A DNA stretch of 39,773 bases from an uncultured bacterium (GTDB taxonomy: Bacteria; Verrucomicrobiota; Lentisphaeria; Victivallales; UBA1829): NCBI GenBank assembly GCA_949290385.1, contig CASERY010000079.1, positions 1 to 39,773 of the forward strand, given 5' to 3'. Within the stretch, counting starts at the first letter, position 1. Each line of letters starts with the position of its first letter. Of this stretch, positions 2,438 to 39,133 are shown piece after piece. The notes under the pieces are model-generated. The model saw only the letters and a program-made list of their open reading frames with translations. It did no database searches and was not told the DNA's origin. The translations under genes and the position numbers were made by a program.

Positions 2438-3415
2438 ATGCTGAAATCCTTTAAAAAGAATGATGCTGCACATTTGTACAGAATGGACAGTGCGGCCCCT
2501 CTCCAGGTTTTTATTGCAACCTCGTCCGGGACACGGATGATCTGCAACGACCCTTCCATTGCCGGTATGTGCTATACCAATCTTCTGTGCCAGTCCTGCA
2601 CCGAGATTCTCCGGCTTTTTGATTTTGGCTTGAAAGAACGTGAGACATGTGTAGTCAATATCCTGCGCGGAGGGCTGAATTTCGGCCTTCGTGAAGCTTT
2701 ATACCATGCTTATGGATGGCTGTATCATACAACCAGTTTTATCAGCGCTCAGCGCGCCAGAAATTCACAGGATCCGGAAGAATGGCATATTACAGAAAAC
2801 GCCTATCGCAAGGTTTACTTTCCCCACACGGCTTCCTGGGTGATCGGAGATGTGGTCGCCACTGGAACGTCTCTTCGCTATGCGCTGGAAGAACTGCTGA
2901 AAGAAGCAGAAAAGCAGTGTCTGGATCTCCGCAATATTGTTTTTTTTACTTACGGAGGGACTAAAGCTGCTGAAATTTTAGAGGAAGTGGACCGCCGTTG
3001 TAGAAAACTTTTTGCTCACTACCAGAAAACAAGCCTGATTTATCTGGAAGGGTGTTTTCAAGTGGCATAGCCTGATACAAAGCTTTCCGTGCGCCTTACG
3101 GGGACAGATCTTTTGCGTCTGAATTCAGTGATGGCTCCGGAGTTTATTGAGTCTCAGTATGAAAATCCTGCATATCCTATTGAGCGGTGTATTATTTATG
3201 ATGCAGGATCAAGAGCGTTCTGGCTGCCTGAATATTGTCATGATGTGATCGACTATTGGAAGCAGAATCTTTCTTTTGCGGAGCAGGGGATGACTTATGC
3301 ACAGCTTTTAGCGGAACGTTTTCCATCTCTGGATGTTTCCCGCTTTTCCGGAGCAGACTTGAAGACAATCGCACGTACTCAAATTCAAAAAATGGAAAAA
3401 ATGATCAAAGGATAA
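2438..3415 (+). CDS. Phosphoribosyltransferase-domain protein with one in-frame UAG
   Basis: Predicted cytoplasmic protein of 325 aa with a type I phosphoribosyltransferase fold. The PRPP-binding loop is visible as VIGDVVATGTSL around residues 135-146, and the upstream VNILRGGLNFGLREAL resembles the flexible loop/PPi region. A TAG at 3068-3070 (codon 211) splits the frame. The same frame continues for another 114 codons through NSVMAPEFIESQYENP and LPEYCHDVIDYWKQN to TAA at 3413-3415, with no start or ribosome site suited to a second gene. The CodB-like permease begins 9 nt downstream, suggesting co-transcription and a role in uptake and salvage of a base or nucleoside. The exact substrate is not identifiable. 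If UAG were a real stop, the enzyme would lose a C-terminal third of unknown function. Confidence 0.8.
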
Positions 3416-5638: not shown

Positions 5639-7054
5639 TCAGTTGGCTGCGGCTTTTTTCTTGGATTGATAAAACTTATCAATGCGCTGTGAAACATCGC
5701 GGAATGCAATATCTGCTGAATAAATCTGTTTGAAGCAGTCCATGGCTTTTTCCATGTTCCCGATAGATTCATAGGTAATTCCCATATGGTACAGCGTATC
5801 CATTTTGACTTTATCCATGACCGGCATTTCTGAGATGGCTTTTTCAAACTGTTCGATAGCCATGTCATCTTGACCTTTTTCATGGAAACAGCGACCCAGA
5901 TAGACAATGGCAAGCAAACGTTTCTGAGGATTACGCTGAGCAAGCTGGAACTGTTCCATGGCTTTCTCGATCTCATGACCTTCCCAGTAAAGTTCAGCAA
6001 TTTCATAACGGAGCTGAAGATCCTGAGGATAAAGTTTTATGCGTTCCTCATAGCGGCCAAGGCGGTAGGCATAAATTTCATCTTTGATTTTCTTGACTTT
6101 TTCTTCTGCATCAGGACCTTTCGCAGCCAGAATATCGTCTGCCTGTTTCTGGAGAATAGCACAATGAGCTTTCTCAATGGCCTTATCAATAGCAGGGTCG
6201 AGTGTCCCGACTTTTTTCACAATGAACTGGTAGGTATCAATACATTTCTGGTAGTCGCCGATTTTCATATAGAGATCGGCTAATTTACGGTACATATCAA
6301 GCGATTCATTCCCGCGTTCGATTTCGTCTTCATACAGTTTGATATTATGGCGAATATCGTCTTCAGCGCGAATGATTTTATCTCCCATTTTACTGTCGAC
6401 TTTATTTTCATCGGTCTTCTTGATTTTTTCAGTAAAGGACTTTTCTTCATCCGTATCCCAGCCGCCTTCTTCCATCGTGGCGATAGCGGCTGCCTCACGG
6501 AGTGCTCCCTGCAGTTCCAGATCATCCGGATGAAGAGCACTGAGTTTCTGACGTACTTTCAGGTAGTTTCTTCCATCCTTCAATTCTTCATAACGCTTTG
6601 CCAGATTATTCAAATACGTTTCATTTTCCGGAGCCATTTCTGTGAGAAGTTCCATGGCTTCGAGTTCAATAAAAAGCGTGTCAGTCTTTTTTCCTGCATC
6701 TTTCAGCAGATTGAGTCCGGGAGCAGAGTACAAATTAATCGCCAGTGCTTCTTCTGCGGCCTAAAGCGCTTCCATTGGTTTCTTTGCGAGGCAACCGCGA
6801 CCTTTCATGAGAATCCCAAGGGATTTTGTCGTACCGAGAAAACGGGTAAACGGAGACTGGCGATTGGCTTTTCTGCGTTCTGCATCACGAAGTGCATTAC
6901 GGGCATCCATGAAGCCCGGTTCCTTTTGCACAACGCCTTTAAGGAGCTCAATGCCATAGTCCTCAGCGCCTTTTGAGATGACTTCCAGAGCTTTCTGATA
7001 AATACCGCGAATTCCGCTGGATACATCTCTCAGCGATTTTTTTTCAATAGCCAT
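5639..7054 (-). CDS. Tetratricopeptide repeat protein with one in-frame UAG
   Basis: Predicted 471-aa helical repeat protein without signal peptide or membrane segment. The start at 7054 has GGAGG 8 nt upstream. TPR-like helix pairs are visible throughout, for example ELLTEMAPENETYLNNLAKR, LADLYMKIGDYQKCIDTYQ, AELYWEGHEIEKAMEQF, and IVYLGRCFHEKGQDDMAIEQ. A TAG at 6761-6763 (codon 98) falls inside a TPR second helix (MEAL-x-AAEEALAIN), at a position that is normally solvent-exposed. The frame then runs on unbroken to TGA. TPR proteins are scaffolds and the partner is unknown. It diverges from mnmE across a 137-bp promoter region and has its own terminator. Confidence 0.85.
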
Positions 7055-7191: not shown

Positions 7192-8583
7192 ATGTATTCA
7201 GAGCAGAATTCAGACCTTTTAGAGGATACAATAGCTGCAGTGTGCACAGGGCCTGGCGGCGCGCTGGCGGTCGTAAGAATATCCGGCCCGGAGGCCCTGC
7301 GGATTGTGTCTGCCGTCTGGCATGGGACGCATCCATTTCCTTAGAAGCCTGCCAGAGTTCTTCACTTCGGGCATATCCTGGATGAGCAGGGGGAAAACTG
7401 TCTTGCCGTGTATATGCCGGGACCGCACAGCTATACGGGAGAGGATGTTGCAGAAATTCATGTGCATGGCGGAGATTTTGCTCCTGTGCGTGCTTTGAAT
7501 GCAGTGCTGGACCGCGGTGCCCGGATGGCTGAACCTGGAGAATTTACGAAAAGAGCTTTCCTGAACGGAAAAATCGATCTGACGCAGGCAGAGGCTGTTA
7601 TGGACTTGATTCAGGCTAAAACAGCTTCTGCGGGAAAGCTGGCAGAAAAGCAGATGGCTGGACGTTTGGGATCCAAGATCCGCAAAATCAGAATATCTTT
7701 GATCGGCGCACTGGCCGAAATAGAATCCCGTTTGGACTTCCCGGATGAGGATTTGGATTTTGTCGTTCCGGAAGAATTGACTGCGGTGCTGTCTTCAGCA
7801 GAAAGAGAAATCGAGAATCTTTTAAAGTCCGGCAGGTCCGGCAGAATTCTTAGAAACGGTGTCCGGTTGGTTCTGGCTGGTTCTCCGAATGCCGGCAAAT
7901 CCAGTTTGCTGAATGCACTGCTTGGGTTTGACAGGGCTATCGTAACAGAAGTACCGGGAACAACGCGTGACACATTGGAAGAAAATCTCACCATTCATGG
8001 TATTTTGTGTAAGATTACGGATACCGCCGGCCTTCGCGAAAACAGTTCTGATTTGGTAGAGGGAATGGGCATAGTACGCACAAAAGAAAGCATTCAGTCG
8101 GCCGAAATAGTTCTTTGGCTTCTGGATGCATCGCGCCCGGACTCGTATAAGGAAGACCTGGATCGTTTGAAGAGAGAATTGCCAGAAGGAATGCCTTGTA
8201 TTGTTTGCTGGAATAAAACAGACCTTTTGTCTGACAGACAGCTTGCAGACTTGCCTGAGGTGCCGAATTCGTTGAATTCAGTAAAAATTTCAGCTCTGAA
8301 CGGGACTGGCCTGAATGAGCTTTCTGACCAAATTGAACAGCTTGTTTGGCGTCGTGCAGACCATAGTGAAAGTGACTGTGCCATTGCAGAGCGCCATGAA
8401 AAACTTTTGAAGGAAGCTGCAGTCCGTCTGGAACAGGCAGAGTCTGAAATTAAACGGCTTGCCTGGGAACTTGCTGCAAGCTGTCTTCATGAGGCTGTAT
8501 TCAGTCTTGGGACGATTACCGGGGAGAATGTTCAGCCCGATATCCTGGATGAAATTTTTTCCAGATTCTGCATCGGGAAATAA
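7192..8583 (+). CDS. mnmE: tRNA modification GTPase MnmE with one in-frame UAG
   Basis: GTPase that, with MnmG, installs the carboxymethylaminomethyl group at U34 of certain tRNAs. The 463-aa product matches the usual length of about 450-460. The N-terminal domain has DTIAAVCTGPGGALAVVRIS and the formyl-THF-binding region with GPHSYTGEDVAEIHVHGG. The G domain shows G1 AGSPNAGKSS, G2 TTRD, G3 DTAGLRE and G4 NKTD, and the catalytic C-terminal Cys is present in CIGK. A TAG at 7342-7344 (codon 51) separates the first 50 residues from the rest. Without reading it the protein would lack its N-terminal domain start. An ATG at 7189 is an equally possible start, and the ribosome site is weak. It ends at TAA. 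Confidence 0.92.
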
Positions 8584-10842: not shown

Positions 10843-11293
10843 TTTTCGGTTCCTCACAGTCTGCATCCCTCCAGCAGTCAATCTATAGAGAATCCAGTAC
10901 TTGTTTATCACTTCGGCGCAGCAGAGTCAGCTGGAGCGTCATCAGCTGAAGTCCTACAGATGGATTTTCGAACCCACTTGAAAATTCCGGATCTGTATAT
11001 TTCCTGCGAACAATAAAATCCGGATGCAGAAATCTGGAATCCAGATCAGCGGATGGGTCTGCAAGAAGAGCATATTCTGCCGCATTGATTAATTCATGAC
11101 TGTACCGCCAGGAATCCATTCCGTCTGTAACTCGGAAAGACGCAGCAGCAAATTGTGAAATCAGGAATCCCAGACCTATGCAAAATAGAAAGAAGGCAAT
11201 CAGAACTTCCAACAAAGTAAAGATTTTTCGGTTTCGACCGACGGAGGCAGACTGGTTGAATTGAAAAACAGGAGAAAAAGGCAAAAAAATCAT
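10832..11293 (-). CDS. gspI: T2SS minor pseudopilin GspI-like, UAG near C-terminus
   Basis: Predicted 153-aa pseudopilin with an N-terminal helix KIFTLLEVLIAFFLFCIGLG; isoleucine replaces the usual glycine before F. The start ATG overlaps the gspH stop by 4 nt (ATGA). A TAG at 10883-10885 (codon 137) would end the protein at DSL. Reading through adds 16 residues and ends at TAA, overlapping the gspJ start by 11 nt, which fits the tight packing of the rest of the operon. This is the weakest of the UAG cases, because a true end at 10883 would also leave a plausible protein. Confidence 0.7.
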
Positions 11294-11907
11294 AAGGATA
11301 TCTCCTCATATTGAATGGGGATCGGCTTTTTCTGAATATCTCCGGGGATGTCATGAATTTTGCGCAAAATTCTTCCGGTAAGGGGGGAACAGTGCAATTC
11401 TACTGTCCGTTGGTTTGAATCATCCCGTATGTAAATCGTCCGTTCCTCCATTTCTCCTGCAGGAGAGATGATTAGCTCACTGGGTTTTGGCGGTTCTTGG
11501 ATTTCTTCTCCCTGACTGGATTTGAGAAGTTTGCGGAATGCCGCACTGACAGAATTTTCAGCTTCATTGCTTACATAGTCGGGAATTTCTTCAAAAGTTA
11601 TCTGAATAGAGTCCGGAATCCGCAAAGACTTTGTTTTGGATATGCTGTTCCATTTCCAGGTTCTTGTATCCGGATTGTAAACAATTTTCTGCATCTTCTG
11701 TGTGCGTGTCTATTCCATTCTTGCTGAACGGATGAACTCCAGAAGCTCATCCGAATGGTTTTCTGCTGTAGGTGCCGATGTTCCTCCCCCACCTGGCGCC
11801 ATGTAAAGAAGGGACATGGCACTGATCAGAACTGCAATAGCCAGAACTGCAACCATTTCAATCAAGGTGAAGCACCGGCAATCAAACTTTTTTCCCATGG
11901 ATATCAT
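11290..11907 (-). CDS. gspH: T2SS pseudopilin GspH-like with one in-frame UAG
   Basis: Predicted 205-aa minor pseudopilin. The N-helix is CFTLIEMVAVLAIAVLISA with cysteine before F. A TAG at 11710-11712 (codon 66) follows FIRSARME, exactly where GspH/FimT proteins have the helix motif ARxxA. The same frame continues as KIVYNPDTRTW, then TIYIRDDSNQRTVELHCSP and LTGRILRKIHDIPG, a typical GspH beta domain. Read as a stop, the product would be a helix only. The start is 11907 or 11898. It ends at TGA, overlapping gspI. Confidence 0.82.
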
Positions 11908-12638: not shown

Positions 12639-13856
12639 TCAGCGTATGGCATTCATTTTCCAGATGGCCAGGAATACAGAAAGCACCACAGCCATAACCA
12701 TAAGAGCCAGAATCATAATGATCAACGGCTCAAGCATAGCCAGAAGACGTTTAAACTGAATGCGTGTTGCGCTCTATTGCTCCTGAAACAACCGGTCGAA
12801 CATTTCTCCTACATCTCCGGATTCCTCTGCAACTTTCAACATGGCGGCAGATCCGGGAGGGAGAAATGCTATTTCTCCAAGGACATCTGAAAGTTTTTCT
12901 CCTTCCTGGATTTTGGAAGAAACCGATTCAAAACTTTTCCGAATCACATTGTTTGTCAGCAGATCCTGAGCAATTTTCAACGCGGACAGCAACGGTACGT
13001 GGCTTTTTGTCATAATGGCCATTGCCTGAAGAAATGTACTGATCTGGACAGAAATTACAAGGGGGCCGGCCACAGGAACTTTTAAAATAATTTGATCCCT
13101 CCATGTCCGGAGAAGTCCCTGATGGCTCATTCTTTTTTTTACAAGAATAAGCAGCAGAATAATGATCGGAATAAAAAACCAGTTGCCTGTGAGAAAACTG
13201 CTGATGGAAAGCATGGCTCTTGTCAGGGCTGGCAGTTGAGCTCCCATATCTTCAAAAACTTTGGCAAACTGAGGGATAAAAACGGTGAAAAGCAACAGAA
13301 CCACTGCCAAGGTGACACAGGCAACAATAACAGGATAAATGGAACTGGTTACAATAAAATTTTTAAAATCTCTCTGTTCCGCCAGAAATTTTCTCAAATC
13401 ATTCATCACTGCAGGAAGACATCCTGCTTCTTCTCCAGTCCGGATCAATCCTGCCACAATAGGCGGGAAAAGATCCGGCATTCCCTGAATCAAAGAAGAA
13501 AAACTTTTTCCCTCATGAAGATTTTTCCGGAGATCACGCAGAATTTCTGCCGAATCCTGTGTAGACGCACTTTCCTCCATGACAGACAGCTATTTCTCCA
13601 GAGGCACATTGGCACAGAGCAGAGGCGCAAGTCTGTTTGCAAATTCGAGAACATCGAACTTTTTTCGAACTTTGAACTGGAACCAGTTCCCGGATCTGGA
13701 AGGTGTTCCCTGATTCTAATGCAGTTCCTTCAGGGGAATCAGTCCCTGCTTGTGCAGTTTGATTCTTGCTTCCTGATCGCTTTCAGCCTGGATTAGCAGT
13801 TCCTTCTGTTTTCCGGAACGATCCATTACTAAATAACGGAAAGAGTCGCTGTTCAT
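12639..13856 (-). CDS. gspF: T2SS inner-membrane platform protein GspF with three in-frame UAG
   Basis: Polytopic inner-membrane protein of 405 aa, the normal GspF length, reached only by reading three TAG codons: 13716-13718 (codon 47, linker after PLKEL), 13590-13592 (codon 89) and 12774-12776 (codon 361). The ATG overlaps the gspE stop by 4 nt. The family pattern is clear: FANRLAPLLCANVPLEK-x-L, GLIRTGEEAGCL, FIVTSSIYPVIVACVTLAVV, the second GspF domain with AGPLVISVQISTFLQAMAIM and MLKVAEESGDVGEMFDRLF, and the last membrane segment RLLAMLEPLIIMILALMVMA. Codon 89 falls where this family usually has Ala. It ends at TGA. Confidence 0.93.
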
Positions 13857-17751: not shown

Positions 17752-18372
17752 TTATTGTTTTTTGACAACCGGCGGTTCGGCTCCAAGACTGATGCTCCAT
17801 GATTTTTTATCTTTGACAAGAACCACAGAATCTTCCTGTATTTTATGCAGATAAACTCCGCTTCCAATCTCATCTCCAACCCTGAAAAGATCCGCATAGC
17901 GGTCTCCATTAGCTTCCGGCAGAGTGTTTCCGCCAGTAATTGAGACGCCCATAGAACCATTCATCAAATAGATTCCAGTCAGTTTCAGTCTGGGCCAGTC
18001 ATCCGGATATGCACCCAGTGGCACAATCTGCTATTCTTCTTCAGCTTTACGTTTGGCTTCTTCTTCCTGGGCAAGTCTTTTCTATTCTTCTTCGGCAAGT
18101 TTCGCATCCTGTTCAGTTGTAGCAGATGCTTCCGGCGTTTGAAGAGTATCTGTTCTGGATTTTGAAAAGAGGTCTTTCTTGTAAATGCCGCTGTAATCCG
18201 GAGGATCAGTCTTTTCCTCTTCGGGATAGACCAGGGAAATCTGTAAATCTTCGTCTTCCCCTGGAACCGGATAGGGTTCCAGTCGGTCATCTTTTTTCAA
18301 GGCGATGACAAGAATTGCAAAAGCAAGAATATTCAGGCACAGCCCGAGAATGAGTTTTCGCTTATTGCTCAT
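17752..18372 (-). CDS. T2SS GspC-like inner-membrane protein with two in-frame UAG
   Basis: Predicted 206-aa bitopic protein: one N-terminal membrane segment (LILGLCLNILAFAILVIAL), a proline-rich periplasmic linker, a charged Glu/Lys/Ala coiled-coil segment (about residues 90-115), and a C-terminal beta domain like the GspC homology region (LKLTGIYLMNGSMGVSI, RVGDEIGSGVYLHKI, DSVVLV). GspC links the inner-membrane platform to the secretin. TAG at 18082-18084 (codon 97) and 18031-18033 (codon 114) both lie in the coiled coil. The internal repeat EEE-x-KR versus EEEAKR suggests Ala at the first. The start overlaps the gspM-like stop by 4 nt. It ends at TAA. Confidence 0.8.
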
Positions 18373-19034
18373 GACAGACCTTCCTTGCTGCAGGGGGATT
18401 TTTCTTGTGAAGCCTGAAACGAAAGATTCTTCCAACCCAGAAAAGACAGTTTTTCTTTACCGTCATAGGAGGAATGGGCCATGTAGGGGCGTCTTCTTTC
18501 CGGAATGATGCACAGCACGCATACGGTACCGGAGATCGTTAAAGATTCACTGTTAGTCTTAATCGTTAGATTCTTCCAGTAAAGAAACGGCGTATCATTG
18601 GAAAACGACTGCAGAAAGCCAACCACTTGTTCTGTTTTCCCATCGGCTGAAAAAGTGACTTCCAAAAGCACCATGTTCTGATCGAGATTCTGTCTGCGGA
18701 TGTTTCCCATATTTCTGCTGCGAATTCCGTTTTTAAAGGCGGATGTTTCCAGCCGTTCGCGGAATAGCAATGCTGCATTCTGAATGCTTTTAGCGGAAAG
18801 ACTGCCCTTTTTCATTTTCCAGAGCGGTGTCAGTTCTTCCATCAGGATACGATTATCTTCCAGGGTAAGTTCAATGTCTGAACGCGTAGATTCAATTTGT
18901 CTGGAAAGTTTTTCCAGACGGCTAGGAGTCAATGGCAGTCTGTCCAGACAAAGCGTCCATATACAGAAAAGACAGACCAGGACGGATACTACAACCGGAA
19001 GTCCGCCGGAGAGATGATTTTTCATCTTTTTCAT
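18369..19034 (-). CDS. T2SS GspM/PilO-like protein
   Basis: Predicted 221-aa inner-membrane protein with one N-terminal membrane segment (LPVVVSVLVCLFCIWTLCL), a coiled-coil stretch (SRLEKLSRQIESTRSDIELT), and a ferredoxin-like region (MVLLEVTFSADGKTEQVVGF, SESLTISGTVCVLCI), the usual layout of GspM or PilO. Identification relies on architecture and on position between the GspL-like and GspC-like genes, because sequence conservation in this family is low. 4-nt overlaps on both sides. It ends at TGA. Confidence 0.7.
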   Translation of the reverse strand: MKKMKNHLSGGLPVVVSVLVCLFCIWTLCLDRLPLTPSRLEKLSRQIESTRSDIELTLEDNRILMEELTPLWKMKKGSLSAKSIQNAALLFRERLETSAFKNGIRSRNMGNIRRQNLDQNMVLLEVTFSADGKTEQVVGFLQSFSNDTPFLYWKNLTIKTNSESLTISGTVCVLCIIPERRRPYMAHSSYDGKEKLSFLGWKNLSFQASQEKSPCSKEGLS

Positions 19035-20077
19035 GGCTGGATTCCTTTCAGTGTTACCGTATAGGTCGTTTCCTGTGTATCTGGCTGAACCGATTTGCGC
19101 AGGTCCGCTTGAAACAAGGTGGACTCCATCAGAGAACGAGGCAGATTCTAATCATCTTTGGCAGAGTGAATAGTCACTTCCGCCTGGTCAGCAGTTTGAC
19201 TGTAGCCTGTTACAAACATATACTCGGGAAGGGTGGCATTCAAATCCTGCAGGATGGGAAGAACCTTGCTTCCAAAAAGTTTCATATCTGATATTTTAGT
19301 CTATAGTTCTCTGGATTCCATTAAAGTTTTTTGAATATTTCTGGCTTCTCTGAGTTTTTCATTCAGTTCGTTGTTTTTTTCTTGGAGTCGCTGAAAATCT
19401 GAGGAGAACGTCTGATATCGCTCAATGGAGATCCAAAGAACTGCCATCAGGCATATCAGCAGTGAAACACGATAAAAAACTTTCCATTTCTTATACCGAA
19501 CAGGCTGCAATTCAAAGGGAACCGGACATCCGTGCAGATGAATATTTTTCAAAGATGGATCTATACTGATCGCAGAAAGAAACAGCTGGAGCGGATTATC
19601 ATCCAAATCCGCAGATTCCTTTTTCGCAGCTGGAACATTGTCCGTGCTGTCATCAGGGAGTGTTTCCTGAAGAAGCTGGGATGGGATAAAGTAATCACAG
19701 CTTAATCCCGCTTCCTTTACTTTGGGATATAGAGAATCCACTTCACTTTTGAGAACAGCAAATATTCGGTAGGATCGGTCATCTTTGGAAAGTTTTCTGA
19801 ATCCCCAGTAGACTTTTTCCAAAGGGAAGGGGATATTATTTTCCAGTTCAAAGCGTATGGCCTGAATCAGATTCTGGCCGGAAAGCGGAGCTGGAAGAGA
19901 GACTTCGAATACGGCTGTTTTTCGAGTTTTTGCAATAAGACAGCTTACGTCCAGATAGGACGCTGGCGTATTGTTGTTATAGTCCCCGGGATCCAGCATG
20001 GCTGTATGCCGGGATACGGATCCTGTCCTGGCAAACAGATTTCCATCCTGAGAAATGACAATGACACCGAACCGCAT
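19031..20077 (-). CDS. T2SS GspL-like protein (PilM/PilN layout) with two in-frame UAG
   Basis: Predicted 348-aa protein, first gene of the T2SS operon. The N-terminal half resembles the actin-like cytoplasmic domain of GspL/PilM (FELENNIPFPLEKVYWGFRK). Then comes one membrane segment (YRVSLLICLMAVLWISIE), a coiled coil, and a PilN-like periplasmic ferredoxin-type domain (VLPILQDLNATLPEYMFVTG). TAG at 19301-19303 (codon 259, coiled coil) and 19148-19150 (codon 310) are in frame. The periplasmic domain exists only if both are translated. The ribosome site is weak. The ATG at 20077 is the first start after an in-frame TAA. It ends at TGA, overlapping the gspM-like start. Confidence 0.78.
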
Positions 20078-20352: not shown

Positions 20353-20856
20353 TCAGCGAAACCAGGATCCGACGACTTGTCTTTCACCGTCTCTCTTGAT
20401 CAGACTGATTTGGAAAAGTGTTTCAAAAACGGTTGTTTTTCCATTGATGTTTCGGACAAAGCTTAGCTTCCATAAATGGGCCGAGAAGACCGGATTATGA
20501 AGTCCTGTAAGATATTCCTATTGCTGAAAACTGCCAAGATTTGTGCGCAGTTCCATAAAATCAGACTGGTTGACCTGCTGCTTGTATTCCGGGGAAAGAT
20601 ATTCACAGAAGGCGGCGAAATCTTTTTCCTGAAACGCCAGAAGCATTTGTTCTCCAATCTGGATAGCTTCCTGGTCATCGGCTTTCTGCGCTGCATCTTC
20701 AGGAACTGCTGCCGGTTCATAGGTGGCGCTGTTGTCTCCTTGGGTACTCATACTGGAAGATGTGCAGGAGACTGCACTGGATCCAAGGAACAGCGCAGAA
20801 AGTGCAACGGCAAAAAGGGGATTGATGGACAGCACATTTCGCATAAGTTTTTTCAT
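20353..20856 (-). CDS. Predicted lipoprotein of unknown function with one in-frame UAG
   Basis: 167-aa protein with a lipoprotein signal peptide (hydrophobic stretch then SAVSC at residues 21-25). The start at 20856 has GGGAGG 6-7 nt upstream. The mature part has a Ser/Thr-rich linker and a small alpha/beta region (MLLAFQEKDFAAFCEYLSPE, then VFETLFQISLIKRDGERQVV) that recalls NTF2-like or DUF4878-type lipoprotein domains, although I cannot assign it. A TAG at 20518-20520 (codon 113) sits after SFQQ. The frame continues through the beta strands to TGA at 20353. It lies upstream of the T2SS operon on the same strand but is separated by 275 bp and a promoter. Confidence 0.75.
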
Positions 20857-24500: not shown

Positions 24501-25526
24501 GTGGAAGTCCATGCATGTGAACCCTAGAACCCTGACGCAAACAAACGGGATTATTTTCGCAAAGGTGTTTTTCTCTTGCTGACTGTGGGATTTTTTGCAG
24601 TTCCCTGGGCAGTTGAGCCGACCAGAGATTATGCTCCTGGAATTGCTGTCCTTGCAGGAATTGCATTCGCTGTGTTCTGGGGAAATCCGTTCAGTAAAAT
24701 CACTTCTAAAATCACTTCCACACTTCTTGGCGCTACTATTGTGGGAATGGGATTCGGCATGAATCTGGTCTCTGTCCTGCGTGCAGGAGCGAACGGGATT
24801 GTATATACTTAGATCGGTATTTGCGCCGGAATCGGACTGGGTGTGCTGATCGGGAAAAAACTGAAACTTCCCCGGGATACCATGTATCTAGTCAGTGTTG
24901 GAACCTCCATTTGCGGAGGAAGCGCTATTGCTGCTGCAGCTCCGGTTCTGAAAGCAAAAGCTCATGAAGTGGCTATTGCATCTGCCACGGTTTTCGCTTT
25001 AAATGCAGTTGCTCTGCTGGTTTTCCCTGCGGTAGGTCATGCATTGAATTTTTCACAGGAACAATTCGGCTATTGGGCTGCGCTGGCCATTCATGATACC
25101 AGTTCTGTTGTTGGCGCAAGTTTTCAGTATGGACCAACTGCTCTGGAAGTCGGAACTACGGTAAAACTGGCCAGAGCTCTCTGGATTGTGCCTGTAACAT
25201 TGTTCCTTTCCTGCTTTGTGGCCGGAACTGCTGAAGGAGAAAAACGCAAAATCCAGCTGAAAGTTCCCTGGTTCATCCCGGGATTTCTCATTGCTTCCGC
25301 CATTGTAACACTGCTTCCGGTACTTGCTCCCGCCGGAGGAGTCCTGAAAGAAATATCCAAGTATTTAATGATTACCACGCTGTTCCTGATTGGATCAAAT
25401 CTGAGCCGTGAAAAATTAAAAGAAATTGGATTGAAACCAGTTCTTCAAGGGGTTATTCTGTGGGTGATTCTTTCAGTCGCGTGGTGTTCGGCTATTTATC
25501 TGGGATGGGTCAACTGCGTTCAGTGA
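24501..25526 (+). CDS. YeiH/UPF0324-family membrane protein (putative sulfate exporter family) with two in-frame UAG
   Basis: Polytopic inner-membrane protein of 341 aa, the usual UPF0324 length. The GTG start at 24501 has GAGGAG 9 nt upstream; an in-frame ATG at 24492 lies too close to that site. The family core is clear: PGIAVLAGIAFAVFWGNPFS, TLLGATIVGMGFGMNL, and SVGTSICGGSAIAAAAPVLK, then WAALAIHDTSSVVGASFQYG and MITTLFLIGSNLSREKLKEI. TAG at 24525-24527 (codon 9, N-terminal tail) and 24810-24812 (codon 104, inside a membrane segment after GIVYT). In the membrane segment a small or hydrophobic residue is expected. It pairs with the divergent LysR gene, as in yeiE-yeiH. It ends at TGA, followed by a strong terminator. 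Confidence 0.9.
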
Positions 25527-28007: not shown

Positions 28008-28406
28008 TCAATTATTTTTATCAGCATCGAAAATGCTGCGAAGTTTCTAAGCGAGAACTGGCAGACGATGAGGCTTCGGCAAAAAACCGGCAGCACCTTT
28101 TTCCAGAAGGTCGTTGACTGAAGTTGCCGAAACAAATCCGCTTGACAGGAGTACCTTGACATTCGGGTCAATCTCCTTCAGCTGATAAAACGTGCTGTGG
28201 CCACCAAGTTTTGGCATAACCATATCCAGCAGAACCAGGTCAATTTCATGAGGATTTTCACGGTAGATGGATACCGCATCTTCACCATTTTCAGCAAGAA
28301 GCACGGAATAACCAAGATTCTGAAGTGCTTCAATCAGAAAATCCCATACCGTTTCCTGATCATCCACAATCAAAATGGTTTCATGACCGCCGGGAAGTTT
28401 GTTCAT
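28008..28406 (-). CDS. Stand-alone response-regulator receiver protein with one in-frame UAG
   Basis: 132-aa receiver domain without an output domain. The acidic pocket (ILIVDDQETV), phospho-acceptor Asp (LVLLDMVMPKLGG), Ser/Thr switch (VLLSSGFVS) and Lys (GFLPKPHRLPVLA) are all present. The leading GGHETILIVDD resembles receiver domains attached to hybrid histidine kinases. A TAG at 28047-28049 (codon 120) lies at the start of the last helix. Reading it completes that helix (KLRSIFDADKN) and ends at TGA. The start ATG at 28406 is chosen over an upstream TTG. No cognate kinase is in the window. Confidence 0.85.
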
Positions 28407-31268: not shown

Positions 31269-33104
31269 TTAATAGCCTTTACAGACTTCGATGGCCGTGC
31301 TGACATTGCCGAACGGTGCACTTGTAGCAACCCCCTGGACTTCTGAATGAATCTCTTCCAGAATTTTGCGGGCAATACGGATGCCTTCCATGCGCTGCTC
31401 TATCTTGTCCCCGGCATTTTTCATGGCATTCATAATCCAGTCGGGAACTACAACGCCCGGCACTTCCGTCTACATAAACTGTGCATTGCGGTAGCTTGCA
31501 AAGGGCCAGACTCCGGCAATAACCGGACAGCCAAAATGTCTGATCCTCTTCAGAAATGCCAGAAGTGTGGGCGGATCAAAAACCGGCTGTGTAATGATAA
31601 ACTCTGCACCGGCTTCAATTTTTTCACCCAGTCTGCGGTATTCTCTTTCCGGATCGATTGCATTGGGGTCTGCACCCGCTCCGGAGACAATTGCAGTACG
31701 GATCCCATGTCCGAATGATTTTCCTGCAACATCGACACCCCGGTTCAGACGAGATTGCAATGTAATGAGCCCGATTGAATCCACATCAAAAACTCCGGAA
31801 CTGAATGGATAGTCTCCCAGCTTCGGGGGGTCTCCTGTAATAAACAGAATATTCTTCAGATTTTTTGCCATGCAGCCGAGAATCATGGATTGAATGCTGA
31901 TCAGGTTTCTGTCTCTTGCACAACAATGGATGATGGTCTCCATGCCGGCTTTTTCCTGAATTTCAATGGCTGTTACAACCTGAGAAACACGGCTGCTGGC
32001 CCGGGGACCATCCGGAATGTTCACGGCATCAAAGCCTGCTTCACGGCACAGAACGGCTTTTTGAATTGTATCGGATAGATCAAAGCCTCTGGGAGGAGTC
32101 ATTTCGATGAGTTTCAGCCATTTTCCCTCTTTGAGTTTTTTCCCGAAAGGACTTTTTTCCTCCGTTGGTACAGGATCCAGCAGTTCATTTTGCTGAATTT
32201 CTATCTTTAAAGCCGGTGCATGTTCCGTTTTCGCAAGAGGCTTCAAGGATCTGGCAAGATCTGCAATATGTTCCGGCGAAATTCCACAGCATCCGCCAAC
32301 GGCCCTCGCTCCGAGATTGACATATCGAATGCCGTATGTCGTAAAATATTCCGGGGTAGTCATCGGCATAAAGCGATTGTCTACATTTTTCGGCACACCG
32401 GCTCCCGGCTGAACAATGACAGGCAGTTGAATCGACGAAATCACTTTCTCCAAGGCGGAAAGGGTTGTATCTGGACCAGTTCCGCAGTTTAGTCCGAAGG
32501 CTGCAGGTTCACAGGGAAGTTTTGCAAGTTTGTTCAGGATAACTTGTACGTTCGATTTGTCGGCAAGCAGACCGTCGGAGTCCAACACAAAACTCGGAAC
32601 CCACGCGACGGAAGGCGTTTCTTCCTGAAGAAATGCAAGAACATAGTCCAGTTCCTGCTGATTGGAAATGGATTCAAACAGAAGAAAGTCCGCACCTCCA
32701 ATACAGAGCTATTCGCACTGAGTTTTGAGTGCATTTACTGCGTCCTTTAAACTTGTTCCGGGGGGAAGGGGGCCGATGGATCCGGCAATGAGTATTTCCG
32801 GCTTTCCGGCAGCAGCCTTCCGGGCAAGTGCGACAGCGGCTTCATTAATAGAAGAAGTCTGATCGGCAAGACCGAATGAACTAAGTTTCAATGGATTTGC
32901 GTTGTAGGTATTTGTGGTGAGCACCTCTGCCCCGGCATCCACATACGCCTGATGGATGGCCAGCACAACCTGGGGATTGGCCAAACACAGATTGTCATAG
33001 GAGGTATTGATGAAAAAATTTCTTCGGTAAAGTTCCGTGCCGAATCCTCCATCGAAGATCAGGACATTGCTTTTCAGTTTTTTCTGCAGTTCGTCACTTG
33101 TCAT
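31269..33104 (-). CDS. Bifunctional homocysteine S-methyltransferase / methylenetetrahydrofolate reductase with two in-frame UAG
   Basis: 611-aa fusion of the YitJ type. The N-terminal half is a Zn-dependent homocysteine methyltransferase: IFDGGFGTELYRR, the Zn ligands GLNCGTGP and GGCCG, and EVLTTNTYNAN. The C-terminal half is a MetF domain: IPDGPRASSRVS, ILFITGDPPKLGDYP, then IITQPVFDP and PVIAGVWPFASYRNAQFM-x-TEVPG. TAG at 32709-32711 (codon 132) lies in the methyltransferase barrel helix before GGADFLLFE. TAG at 31470-31472 (codon 545) lies directly before TEVPG. The start at 33104 has AAGGAAAA upstream; an upstream ATG at 33187 is also open. It is the last gene of the fol operon, linking folate synthesis to methionine. 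It ends at TAA. Confidence 0.92.
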
Positions 33105-33192
33105 TAGGTTTTCCTTTTCCCCGGGCGCTTCCGGCGCATTGGTTTCATCGGCTGATTCATTTTTCACGAATATGGCACGGGATTTCATTTTT

Positions 33193-33717
33193 TCAAGAAT
33201 TTTTTGAAAGAGAAAAGCCGGTTTTCCAGACCTGTTGATCTTCCGGGAAGCACAAAGGGCCGAAAGGAATCCCAAAGCAGTGTTCATCCGGGAAGAGATC
33301 CTTCAGCGGATAACAGACAAAGGCCCTTTCACGGAACCGTGGATGCGGCAGTATTAAATCTGCGCTGGAACAGACCGTGTGTTCCATGGCGATTAAATCC
33401 AGATCCAGAGTACGTGGACCGTTGGGAACGCTTCTTTGTCTTCCGAATGCACTTTCAATGCCAAGACACATGCCAAGAAGGGTTTCAGGAGAACGAGTCG
33501 TTTCAATCAGAACGGCTGCATTCAAAAAATCTCTTTGGGCTGAAAAACCAACAGGGGATGTCCGATAGATATTTGATTCTTTCAGAAAGCGGACCCCGGG
33601 AAGATGTTTTATGGCGGCGCAGGCATTCTGAAGATGGATGAGCGGATCTCCCAGATTGCTTCCTAGGGCAAGAACTGCCTGTCTGAACGGGGTGTTTCGG
33701 GTTGTTTGCTGGTCCAT
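33193..33717 (-). CDS. folK: 2-amino-4-hydroxy-6-hydroxymethyldihydropteridine pyrophosphokinase
   Basis: Folate-pathway kinase transferring pyrophosphate from ATP to hydroxymethyl-dihydropterin. 174 aa. Motifs: AVLALGSNLGDPLIHLQNA, IYRTSPVGFSAQRDFLNAAV, the signature GPRTLDLDLIAME, and LPHPRFRERAFVCYPL. The start ATG at 33717 is chosen although its ribosome site is weak; a TTG at 33756 is also open in frame. It follows folB by 194 bp, a gap that could hold an internal promoter. It ends at TGA and contains no UAG. Confidence 0.93.
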   Translation of the reverse strand: MDQQTTRNTPFRQAVLALGSNLGDPLIHLQNACAAIKHLPGVRFLKESNIYRTSPVGFSAQRDFLNAAVLIETTRSPETLLGMCLGIESAFGRQRSVPNGPRTLDLDLIAMEHTVCSSADLILPHPRFRERAFVCYPLKDLFPDEHCFGIPFGPLCFPEDQQVWKTGFSLSKNS

Positions 33718-35209: not shown

Positions 35210-35775
35210 CAGCGGCAGCCCCCGGTAAGAAGGGCCATGACTTCTTCTCTCGTCTTGGCATTGCTGCGCATGGAACCCCGGAGAGCAGAAGTGATGGTTT
35301 TTGCACCGGCTGCCCGGACGCCGCGCATTGTCATGCAGAGATGCTCCGCTTCAATGACCACGGCTGTTCCAAGGGGCTGCATTTTCTGGTCAAGGAAATC
35401 TGCAATCTGGGATGTCAGTCGTTCCTGAATCTGCGGGCGTCTGGCAAAGCAGTTGACAATGCGGGCAAATTTGGATATGCCAAGGACTTTTCCTTTAGAG
35501 GGAATATATGCAATGTGCGCCTTGCCGATAAAAGGCAGCAGATGGTGTTCACAAACGGAATAGAGGGGTATGTCCCGTACAATAACCATTTCCTCACAGG
35601 GTCCCTCATCGAAAAATTTCAGGTATTTTTCAGGATTATCCTCAAGTCCTGAAAAAACTTCTGCATACATATTGGCTACGCGGCGGGGAGTCTCCTGAAG
35701 ACCGTCTTTTGTCGGATCTTCTCCGATAGCGGTTAAAATATCTACTACGGCCTTTTCAATTTTCTATTTATCCAC
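35209..35775 (-). CDS. folE: GTP cyclohydrolase I with UAG at codon 4
   Basis: First enzyme of folate synthesis, converting GTP to 7,8-dihydroneopterin triphosphate. 188 aa when started at GTG 35775, which has GGAG about 9 nt upstream. The fourth codon is TAG (35764-35766). It is followed by the conserved N-terminus [40 protein letters not shown], then the Zn and catalytic residues in [40 protein letters not shown], and [13 protein letters not shown]. No alternative start lies between the TAG and Met at 35670, which would remove a conserved N-terminal part, so UAG must be read. It is first in the operon and ends at TGA, coupled to folP. Confidence 0.92.
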
Positions 35776-38173: not shown

Positions 38174-39133
38174 ATGGCGCCTCAGAAAACAAAATGTCTT
38201 TTCGGTCCGATTCATTCCAGGAGACTTGGCAGATCTCTTGGAATTGATCTGCTTCCCTTTAAAACCTGTTCACTGGACTGCATTTACTGTGAATGCGGAA
38301 GAACTACCTGTTTGACAACGGAACGCAGAGAATATTATCCTGTGGAATCTGTTTTCAAAGAACTGGATGCCTTTTTTGATTCTGGCAAAGAAGTTGATTA
38401 CTTGACATTTTCCGGTGTCGGAGAACCCACGCTCCACCCGGGCGTCGGTCCCATTGTAGAGTATATCAAGAAGAAGAACCCGTCTGTAAAAACGTGCCTT
38501 TTGACAAATGGAACAGAATTGGACCATGCAGACTTGCAGGAACATCTGAAACAGCTTGATCTAATCGTGCCTTCACTGGATGGTTCTAATGAAGAAGAAT
38601 TCCTGAAAATAAATCGTCCTGCACCAGGCGTGACTTTCCGAGGGGTGGTTGAAGCCATCCGGGCATTTCGCTTGAATGTGTCCGAAGTTCGGATGGCTCT
38701 GGAAGTTTTTATTGTTCCTGGAGTGAATGATTCCCAAGAATCTTTGGAGCGTTTCAAAAAATTGTTTTAGGAGATTGCACCGGATTGCATTCAGTTGAAT
38801 TCACTGGATCGACCCGGAACTGAAAACCATATTCCTGTGCCATCCAGAGAACGTTTGGAGGAAATAGCCGCCTTTTTTAAAGATACAGTTCCAGTGGAAA
38901 TTATTTCCAGAGCAGGATATGAGCACAGACCCCCTGTAGTGGATGAGAGCGTGGATGAAATTAATGCTCGGATAGAAAAAAGCATTCGTTCCGGGGTTTG
39001 TGATCTTTTCTCTATGGCGAAAAAGCTTCAATTCCGAGAGGATACACTGAAAGAATATCTGAGGCGTCTTGAGCGGGAAGGCCGCGTCGTTCAGATCAGA
39101 GAAGATGTATATCAGTTAAACGGACAGGATTGA
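38174..39133 (+). CDS. Radical SAM protein (COG0731-like) with one in-frame UAG
   Basis: 319-aa radical SAM enzyme. The start has AGGGGG about 7 nt upstream. The 4Fe-4S ligands are in CSLDCIYCECG, followed by the SAM-binding TFSGVGEPTLHPG, LLTNGTELD, DLIVPSLDGSNEEEFLKINR, and VFIVPGVNDSQESL. A TAG at 38768-38770 (codon 199) lies in KKLF-x-EIAPD. The frame continues as IQLNSLDRPGTENHIPVPS, a motif that belongs to this same family, and then a C-terminal winged-helix-like region (DLFSMAKKLQFREDTLKEYL, REGRVVQIREDVYQL). Substrate unknown. It ends at TGA. Confidence 0.9.

Follow-up and report, generated by a model that had tools for sequence, protein, structure and literature searches.

UAG is a sense codon genome-wide in the metagenome-assembled genome (MAG) of a Lentisphaeria gut bacterium. 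The residue inserted is most probably alanine, with loss of release factor 1 (RF1) and a tRNA-Ala(CUA) as the route, a reading to which we assign a probability of about 0.64. The MAG (2.68 Mb, 78.5% complete, GC 46%) is the sole member of its own genus among the genomes compared, and its RF2 shares at most 80% identity with those of Lentisphaeria/Victivallales MAGs, many of which came from ruminant and other gut samples. One of its 168 contigs, CASERY010000079.1, is the window, i.e., the whole stretch of 39,773 nucleotides from which the analysis started.

UAG as a sense codon across the genome

With only UAA and UGA set as stops in gene calling, ~850 kb of the MAG contained 312 in-frame UAGs in 212,333 codons (1.47 per 1000), and the sampled batches gave 153 in 109,073, 71 in 50,956, and 88 in 52,304 codons. 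These UAGs are spread evenly along genes and are present in core genes, including rpoA, secY, pheT, alaS, mreB, ruvA, mnmE, folE, trpE, trpA, and prfB. In frames fixed by homology (27,982 aligned codons of the MAG), 53 UAGs were found inside alignments versus six UGAs and five UAAs, and these leftover UGA and UAA codons look like gaps or shadow frames for the most part. This imbalance, together with the similar rates elsewhere in the genome and the even positions, indicates that the UAG pattern did not arise by chance.

Relatives showed no UAG in ~210,000 aligned codons, as the two listed UAGs sit in a piece of the MAG itself (L337). Because relatives are without in-frame UAG and UAG makes up only ~2% of alanine codons, the reassignment appears to be young and restricted to the genus of the MAG; its youth is also suggested by the frequent occurrence of UAG in columns where relatives have other residues. 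A sister genus (G001, L187) was considered as another UAG user and rejected, since its 28 X residues come from N-containing codons; its gene calls were unchanged when UAG was set as a stop. The GspF matches of two standard-code relatives (G045 and G036) contain one in-frame UAG each, which is probably a match edge.

An artefact, whether from assembly error, pseudogenes, contamination, or pyrrolysine insertion, is scarcely credible. The MAG is fragmented, as this explanation would have it, but the signal is specific to UAG, even over contigs and core genes, and lacking in relatives, while the best match to the pyrrolysyl-tRNA synthetase PylS (TIGR02367) reached 20.2 bits against a cut-off of 178.

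Release factors

RF1 recognizes UAA and UAG, while RF2 recognizes UAA and UGA. The gene prfB, encoding RF2, was detected in the MAG at 524 bits (cut-off 370) with its SPF motif, whereas prfA, encoding RF1, had no match above the cut-off in the assembly (78% complete). The absence of RF1 is in itself weak evidence, because ~6 of 35 family members, as counted among those listed, likewise show a single full-length release factor. The RF2 gene (contig C8, L045 1408-2505) carries an in-frame UAG at codon 42, so that RF2 can be made at full length only if UAG has its new meaning. An internal UGA, as in the usual autoregulatory frameshift, does not occur in the prfB frame.

In-frame UAG codons in the window

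The two UAGs bounding 18031-18084, the span given in the sequence-only reading, were both confirmed on the minus strand in the single open frame of a GspC-like gene (17752..18435, minus strand, 227 aa, open to TAA), which matched Pfam T2SSC weakly (23.1 bits, below the 27-bit cut-off). Codon 118 (18082..18084, minus strand; EEE*KRLAQ, where the asterisk denotes UAG) aligns with the protein's own repeat unit EEEAKR, and codon 135 (18031..18033, minus strand; EEE*QIVP) lies in the same open frame; the translation spanning both reads LAEEE*KRLAQEEEAKRKAEEE*QIVPLG. The earlier argument for alanine from this coiled coil, which set EEE-x-KR against EEEAKR, fits, as the internal repeat has GCC (Ala). 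That reading had also counted 21 in-frame UAGs, which is right for the called gene set of the window, although two of them, in the TPR frame (codon 52) and the YeiH frame (codon 12), are probably upstream of the true starts. The sites that it named beyond GspC, in GspF, GspH, the two halves of the MetH-MetF fusion, the YeiH-like protein, the receiver domain, and FolE, are all present.

Among the secretion and pilus genes, GspF contains UAGs at codon 89 (13590..13592; PLEK*LSV), codon 361 (12774..12776), and codon 47 (13716..13718), all on the minus strand, the latter two being in-frame calls. Codon 89 had been described as an Ala-dominated position, in agreement with the residues of relatives (A,A,A,A,S,S,V), and GspF scored 151.1 bits against Pfam T2SSF with UAG read as Ala and 147.2 bits as Gln. 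Further in-frame calls on the minus strand are codon 66 of a GspH-like protein (11710..11712; ARME*TRT), to which no homologue was aligned, codon 137 of a GspI/J-like pseudopilin (10883..10885), codons 259 (19301..19303) and 310 (19148..19150) of a PilM-like protein, and codon 156 of a small exported protein (20518..20520). For GspD, no relatives were found in the search of other genomes' contigs. Two sister genomes (G018 and G009) gave well over 100 matches to one pseudopilin N-terminus, suggesting that Lentisphaeria may possess a very large pseudopilin-like family.

A homocysteine methyltransferase domain and an MTHFR domain are joined in a single protein at 31269-33287. UAG in its MetH-like S-methyl_trans half (codon 193, numbered 132 in the earlier reading; 32709..32711, minus strand; QCE*LCIGG) had been proposed as an alanine position, and the S-methyl_trans score was indeed highest with Ala (194.2, compared with 192.5 for Gln, 192.4 for Ser, and 192.2 for Lys). 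At codon 606 in the MTHFR half (31470..31472, minus strand; FM*TEVPG), relatives have K,K,K,R,R. The site of the YeiH-like protein (PF03601; codon 107, 24810..24812, plus strand; VYT*IGI) lies within a membrane helix as claimed, but its column (A,F,L in relatives) is uninformative on the residue. Relatives have A,A,K,R at codon 199 of a radical SAM protein (38768..38770, plus strand), and the one relative aligned at mnmE codon 52 (7342..7344, plus strand) has E. The remaining UAGs are in-frame calls, i.e., codon 127 of a receiver domain (28047..28049, minus strand; LA*KLR; no homologue aligned), codon 13 of the longest folE frame (35764..35766, minus strand), codon 192 of a TPR protein (6761..6763, minus strand), and codon 211 of a phosphoribosyltransferase-like protein (3068..3070, plus strand).

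Residues of relatives at UAG columns

About one third of the UAGs in the ~850 kb examined could be aligned, using tblastn alignments with a flank identity of at least 35% and excluding sites with gaps nearby. The likelihood of each residue was gauged by the same measure at the MAG's own sense codons, with no outside matrix. Alanine ranked first with 50 sites (Ser at -14.8 and Gln at -16.8 nats), with 52 sites, and with 95 sites (Ser second at -4.4 and Gln at -14.2 nats), so its lead over the runner-up was 4-15 nats and shrank on adding less conserved genes. Bootstrapping over the 95 sites returned Ala in 62-63% of draws, Ser in 15-26%, and Gln in 13-22%. For each sense codon tested, all 200 draws recovered the residue that it encodes, and the margin was at least 80 nats with the larger set of sites; the small margin of UAG is therefore unlike that of an established codon.

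The sequence-only reading had proposed tabulating the residues of relatives column by column. Carried out on the 70 columns of the MAG covered by at least two homologues, this tabulation, which is independent of any substitution matrix, gave Ala as the majority residue in 15 columns and Gln in four, with three each for Lys, Glu, Ser, and Thr, and none in 32. If UAG encoded Gln, 1.9% of columns (~1.3) would be expected to have an Ala majority (P=5.5e-12 for 15 or more) and 40% a Gln majority (P=5e-11 for four or fewer); if it encoded Lys, the expected Ala-majority share would be 2.0% (P=6e-12). For true alanine codons, 58% of columns are expected to have an Ala majority, compared with 21% observed at UAG (P=4.6e-10), and the shortfall from its own expected majority is proportionally larger for every residue other than Ala.

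The hardest rival to account for in the alanine excess is serine. UAG as Ser or another small residue is nevertheless quite improbable: Ser comes second in the likelihood on 95 sites and several columns are of the A/S type, but Ser holds the majority in only three columns against 42% expected, the Ala-majority share would be 6.7% (P=5.5e-5 for 15 of 70), and its Pfam total is 7.8 bits below that of Ala. Mutation does not favour alanine, as at least two base changes separate UAG from any GCN codon; thus, the excess of alanine columns calls for alanine as the meaning of the codon. The columns without alanine would reflect either a young UAG that often arose where relatives differ or a partly ambiguous reading. 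A one-step origin of UAG, judged by the third codon base of relatives, was unsupported at Lys/Glu columns. Paralogues within the genome were too few to inform on the residue.

Alanine-type columns in relatives include those of TrpE (AAAAA), alpha-galactosidase (AAAS), a WaaG-like protein (AAAA), RpoA (AAAS), and codon 751 of an RND transporter (A/G/S), at which, judging from the aligned residues, Gln would hardly be tolerated. Gln- or Lys-like columns are found in RuvA (KQQQQ), MetF (KKKRR), and a sigma factor (QQQ).

Pfam profiles and solved structures

Twenty proteins were scored against Pfam after translating UAG as A, Q, S, or K, and the domains holding UAG were summed, with ~1 bit of noise per protein from the composition correction of HMMER. 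Alanine was ahead of Gln by 6.9 bits, of Ser by 7.8 bits, and of Lys by 12.9 bits. Ala scored above Gln in GspF, RpoA, TrpE, S-methyl_trans, RuvA, and an amidohydrolase, while Gln scored above Ala by 4.2 bits in the RND transporter, which has six UAG sites. For calibration, sense codons within the domains of ten proteins (the first ten scored) were recoded: the cost per site was 0.77 bit for the 40 GCG codons read as Gln and 1.12 bit for the 120 CAG codons read as Ala, compared with 0.23 bit for UAG read as Gln rather than Ala. In these terms, UAG is between the Ala and Gln codons and closer to Ala.

Solved structures resemble the profiles in outcome: the residues at UAG columns are A,A,A,N,N in TrpE, A in RuvA, A in WaaG, and A or S at PheT codon 719, and A in five structures of alpha-galactosidase among the matches listed. 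Structures without Ala at the UAG column are those of AlaRS (R,R,R,R,Q), PheT codon 351 (L,I,V), and RpoA (F,V,T).

The earlier preference for Ala over Gln is thus upheld by three measures (likelihood, majority columns, and Pfam). UAG as Gln, known from recoded phages and the nuclei of many eukaryotes through drift from CAG to UAG, would follow the simplest mutational path, and it is favoured by the four Gln-majority columns (RuvA, AlaRS, the sigma factor, and a membrane fusion protein) as well as by the RND transporter. However, it is very improbable in view of the rarity of such columns, the excess of alanine ones, and its deficit to Ala, which amounts to 14 nats in the likelihood from relatives and 6.9 bits in Pfam. 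As to the broader claim that UAG means alanine, Ala fits best, but the signal is weaker than that of a mature alanine codon, and as an Ala codon UAG may be young or in part ambiguous.

A mixture fit gave Ala 0.39-0.61, Gln 0.17-0.20, and Ser 0.06-0.11. This fit and the intermediate Pfam behaviour are consistent with ambiguous decoding, in which near-cognate tRNA-Gln (or tRNA-Lys) would compete with a tRNA-Ala(CUA) for the codon and UAG would be kept mainly at tolerant positions; in E. coli without RF1, near-cognate reading of UAG is known to insert Gln and Tyr (PMC6207430). We regard such decoding as unlikely, because UAG also occupies alanine columns of the essential genes rpoA and TrpE, Ala-like and Gln-like sites occur within one gene, and a young unambiguous Ala codon could yield the same mixture.

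tRNA search and proposed mechanism

Alanyl-tRNA synthetase (AlaRS) recognizes the G3-U70 pair and ignores the anticodon, which makes a tRNA-Ala with an altered anticodon the simplest route to the alanine reading. Under the proposed mechanism, RF1 would have been lost, and a tRNA-Ala(CUA), charged by AlaRS via G3-U70, would read UAG, its gene presumably being located in the missing ~20% of the genome. We only infer this mechanism, as the tRNA is not in the assembly: no CUA tRNA was present among the 46 tRNA matches of the MAG (Rfam, ARAGORN, and sequence patterns). This absence says little, because at least five essential tRNAs, as read from the tRNA list, are missing from the assembly too, namely initiator tRNA-Met, tRNA-Ile(GAU), tRNA-Ala(UGC), and tRNA-Ser(GGA, GCU). 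The pattern TCTAR...GTTCRANNC had four matches in the MAG, all rejected; one is tRNA-Arg(UCU) shifted by one base, two are noise, and the fourth (C164:78-121), despite a tRNA-like look, is missing from the ARAGORN calls and its stems are broken. No CUA tRNA of the usual TAGCTCA type was found among 388 genomes of the phylum.

The assembly without a CUA tRNA, together with the presence of tmRNA and a PrfH/ArfB-like protein in the MAG, could also point to RF1 loss with no dedicated UAG tRNA, where near-cognate suppression and rescue factors would cope with UAG as in recoded E. coli. This explanation is highly improbable: it leaves the alanine-majority columns unexplained, as alanine tRNAs are not near-cognate to UAG, and in essential genes a density of 1.5 UAG per 1000 codons would carry a high cost, while the missing essential tRNAs weaken its premise.

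CUA tRNAs with G3-U70 were observed in two phage contigs, IMGVR_UViG_2974604416_000001 (L425; 6910-6984) and IMGVR_UViG_3300002494_000025 (L430; 7073-7148), which also have long UAG-rich frames (37 UAGs in 736 codons and 24 in 1431, respectively) and are candidate UAG = Ala phages. Nine other viral contigs (L418, L419, L420, L421, L422, L424, L426, L427, and L428) carry CUA tRNAs of Ala-like layout, without G3-U70 in those inspected by eye.

Comparison with known codes

In the mitochondria of Hydrodictyaceae/Neochloris green algae, which have a CUA tRNA of Ala type and whose release factor is altered, UAG is read as Ala (PMC6821328). The codon and the inferred residue are the same as in the MAG; however, the algal case concerns a small organelle genome in which the tRNA was found, whereas the MAG, a bacterial genome that exceeds 2.6 Mb, apparently lacks RF1 and has yielded no such tRNA. 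Genetic code 15 (UAG = Gln), known from crAss-like phages and some eukaryotes (PMC9523058, PMC10879173), shares with the MAG a UAG used as sense, but the MAG columns reject Gln as the sole meaning and its sites are in cellular core genes rather than phage genes. Pyrrolysine systems also use UAG as sense; the MAG differs in that no PylS scored above the cut-off and genes of every kind contain UAG.

Known bacterial stop reassignments are of UGA to Trp or Gly, and every one listed in a 2021 survey of >250,000 genomes concerns UGA (PMC8629427). The MAG resembles these bacteria in the change from stop to sense and differs in the codon and release factor involved, and it is neither reduced nor AT-rich. 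No bacterial UAG reassignment was found in the open-access papers searched, and an earlier report may exist elsewhere. The kind of change is thus known, while the pairing of UAG with Ala would be new for a bacterium. We think it reasonably probable that the MAG represents the first bacterium with UAG reassigned from stop to Ala, at an early stage and within one genus, with alanine use still spreading and partial ambiguity possible.

If true, this change of UAG, in a genome of ordinary size and intermediate GC content, would add a new code to those of bacteria. Alanine is an unusual outcome, as none of its codons can turn into UAG by fewer than two mutations; for this reason, the usual drift, as along the Gln route, fails to explain it, whereas a change that begins with the tRNA does. 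Standard gene callers truncate each UAG-bearing gene, leaving the proteome of the organism misannotated. With a young case and unreassigned sister genera at hand, the order of RF1 loss, acquisition of the new tRNA, and spread of the codon would become testable.
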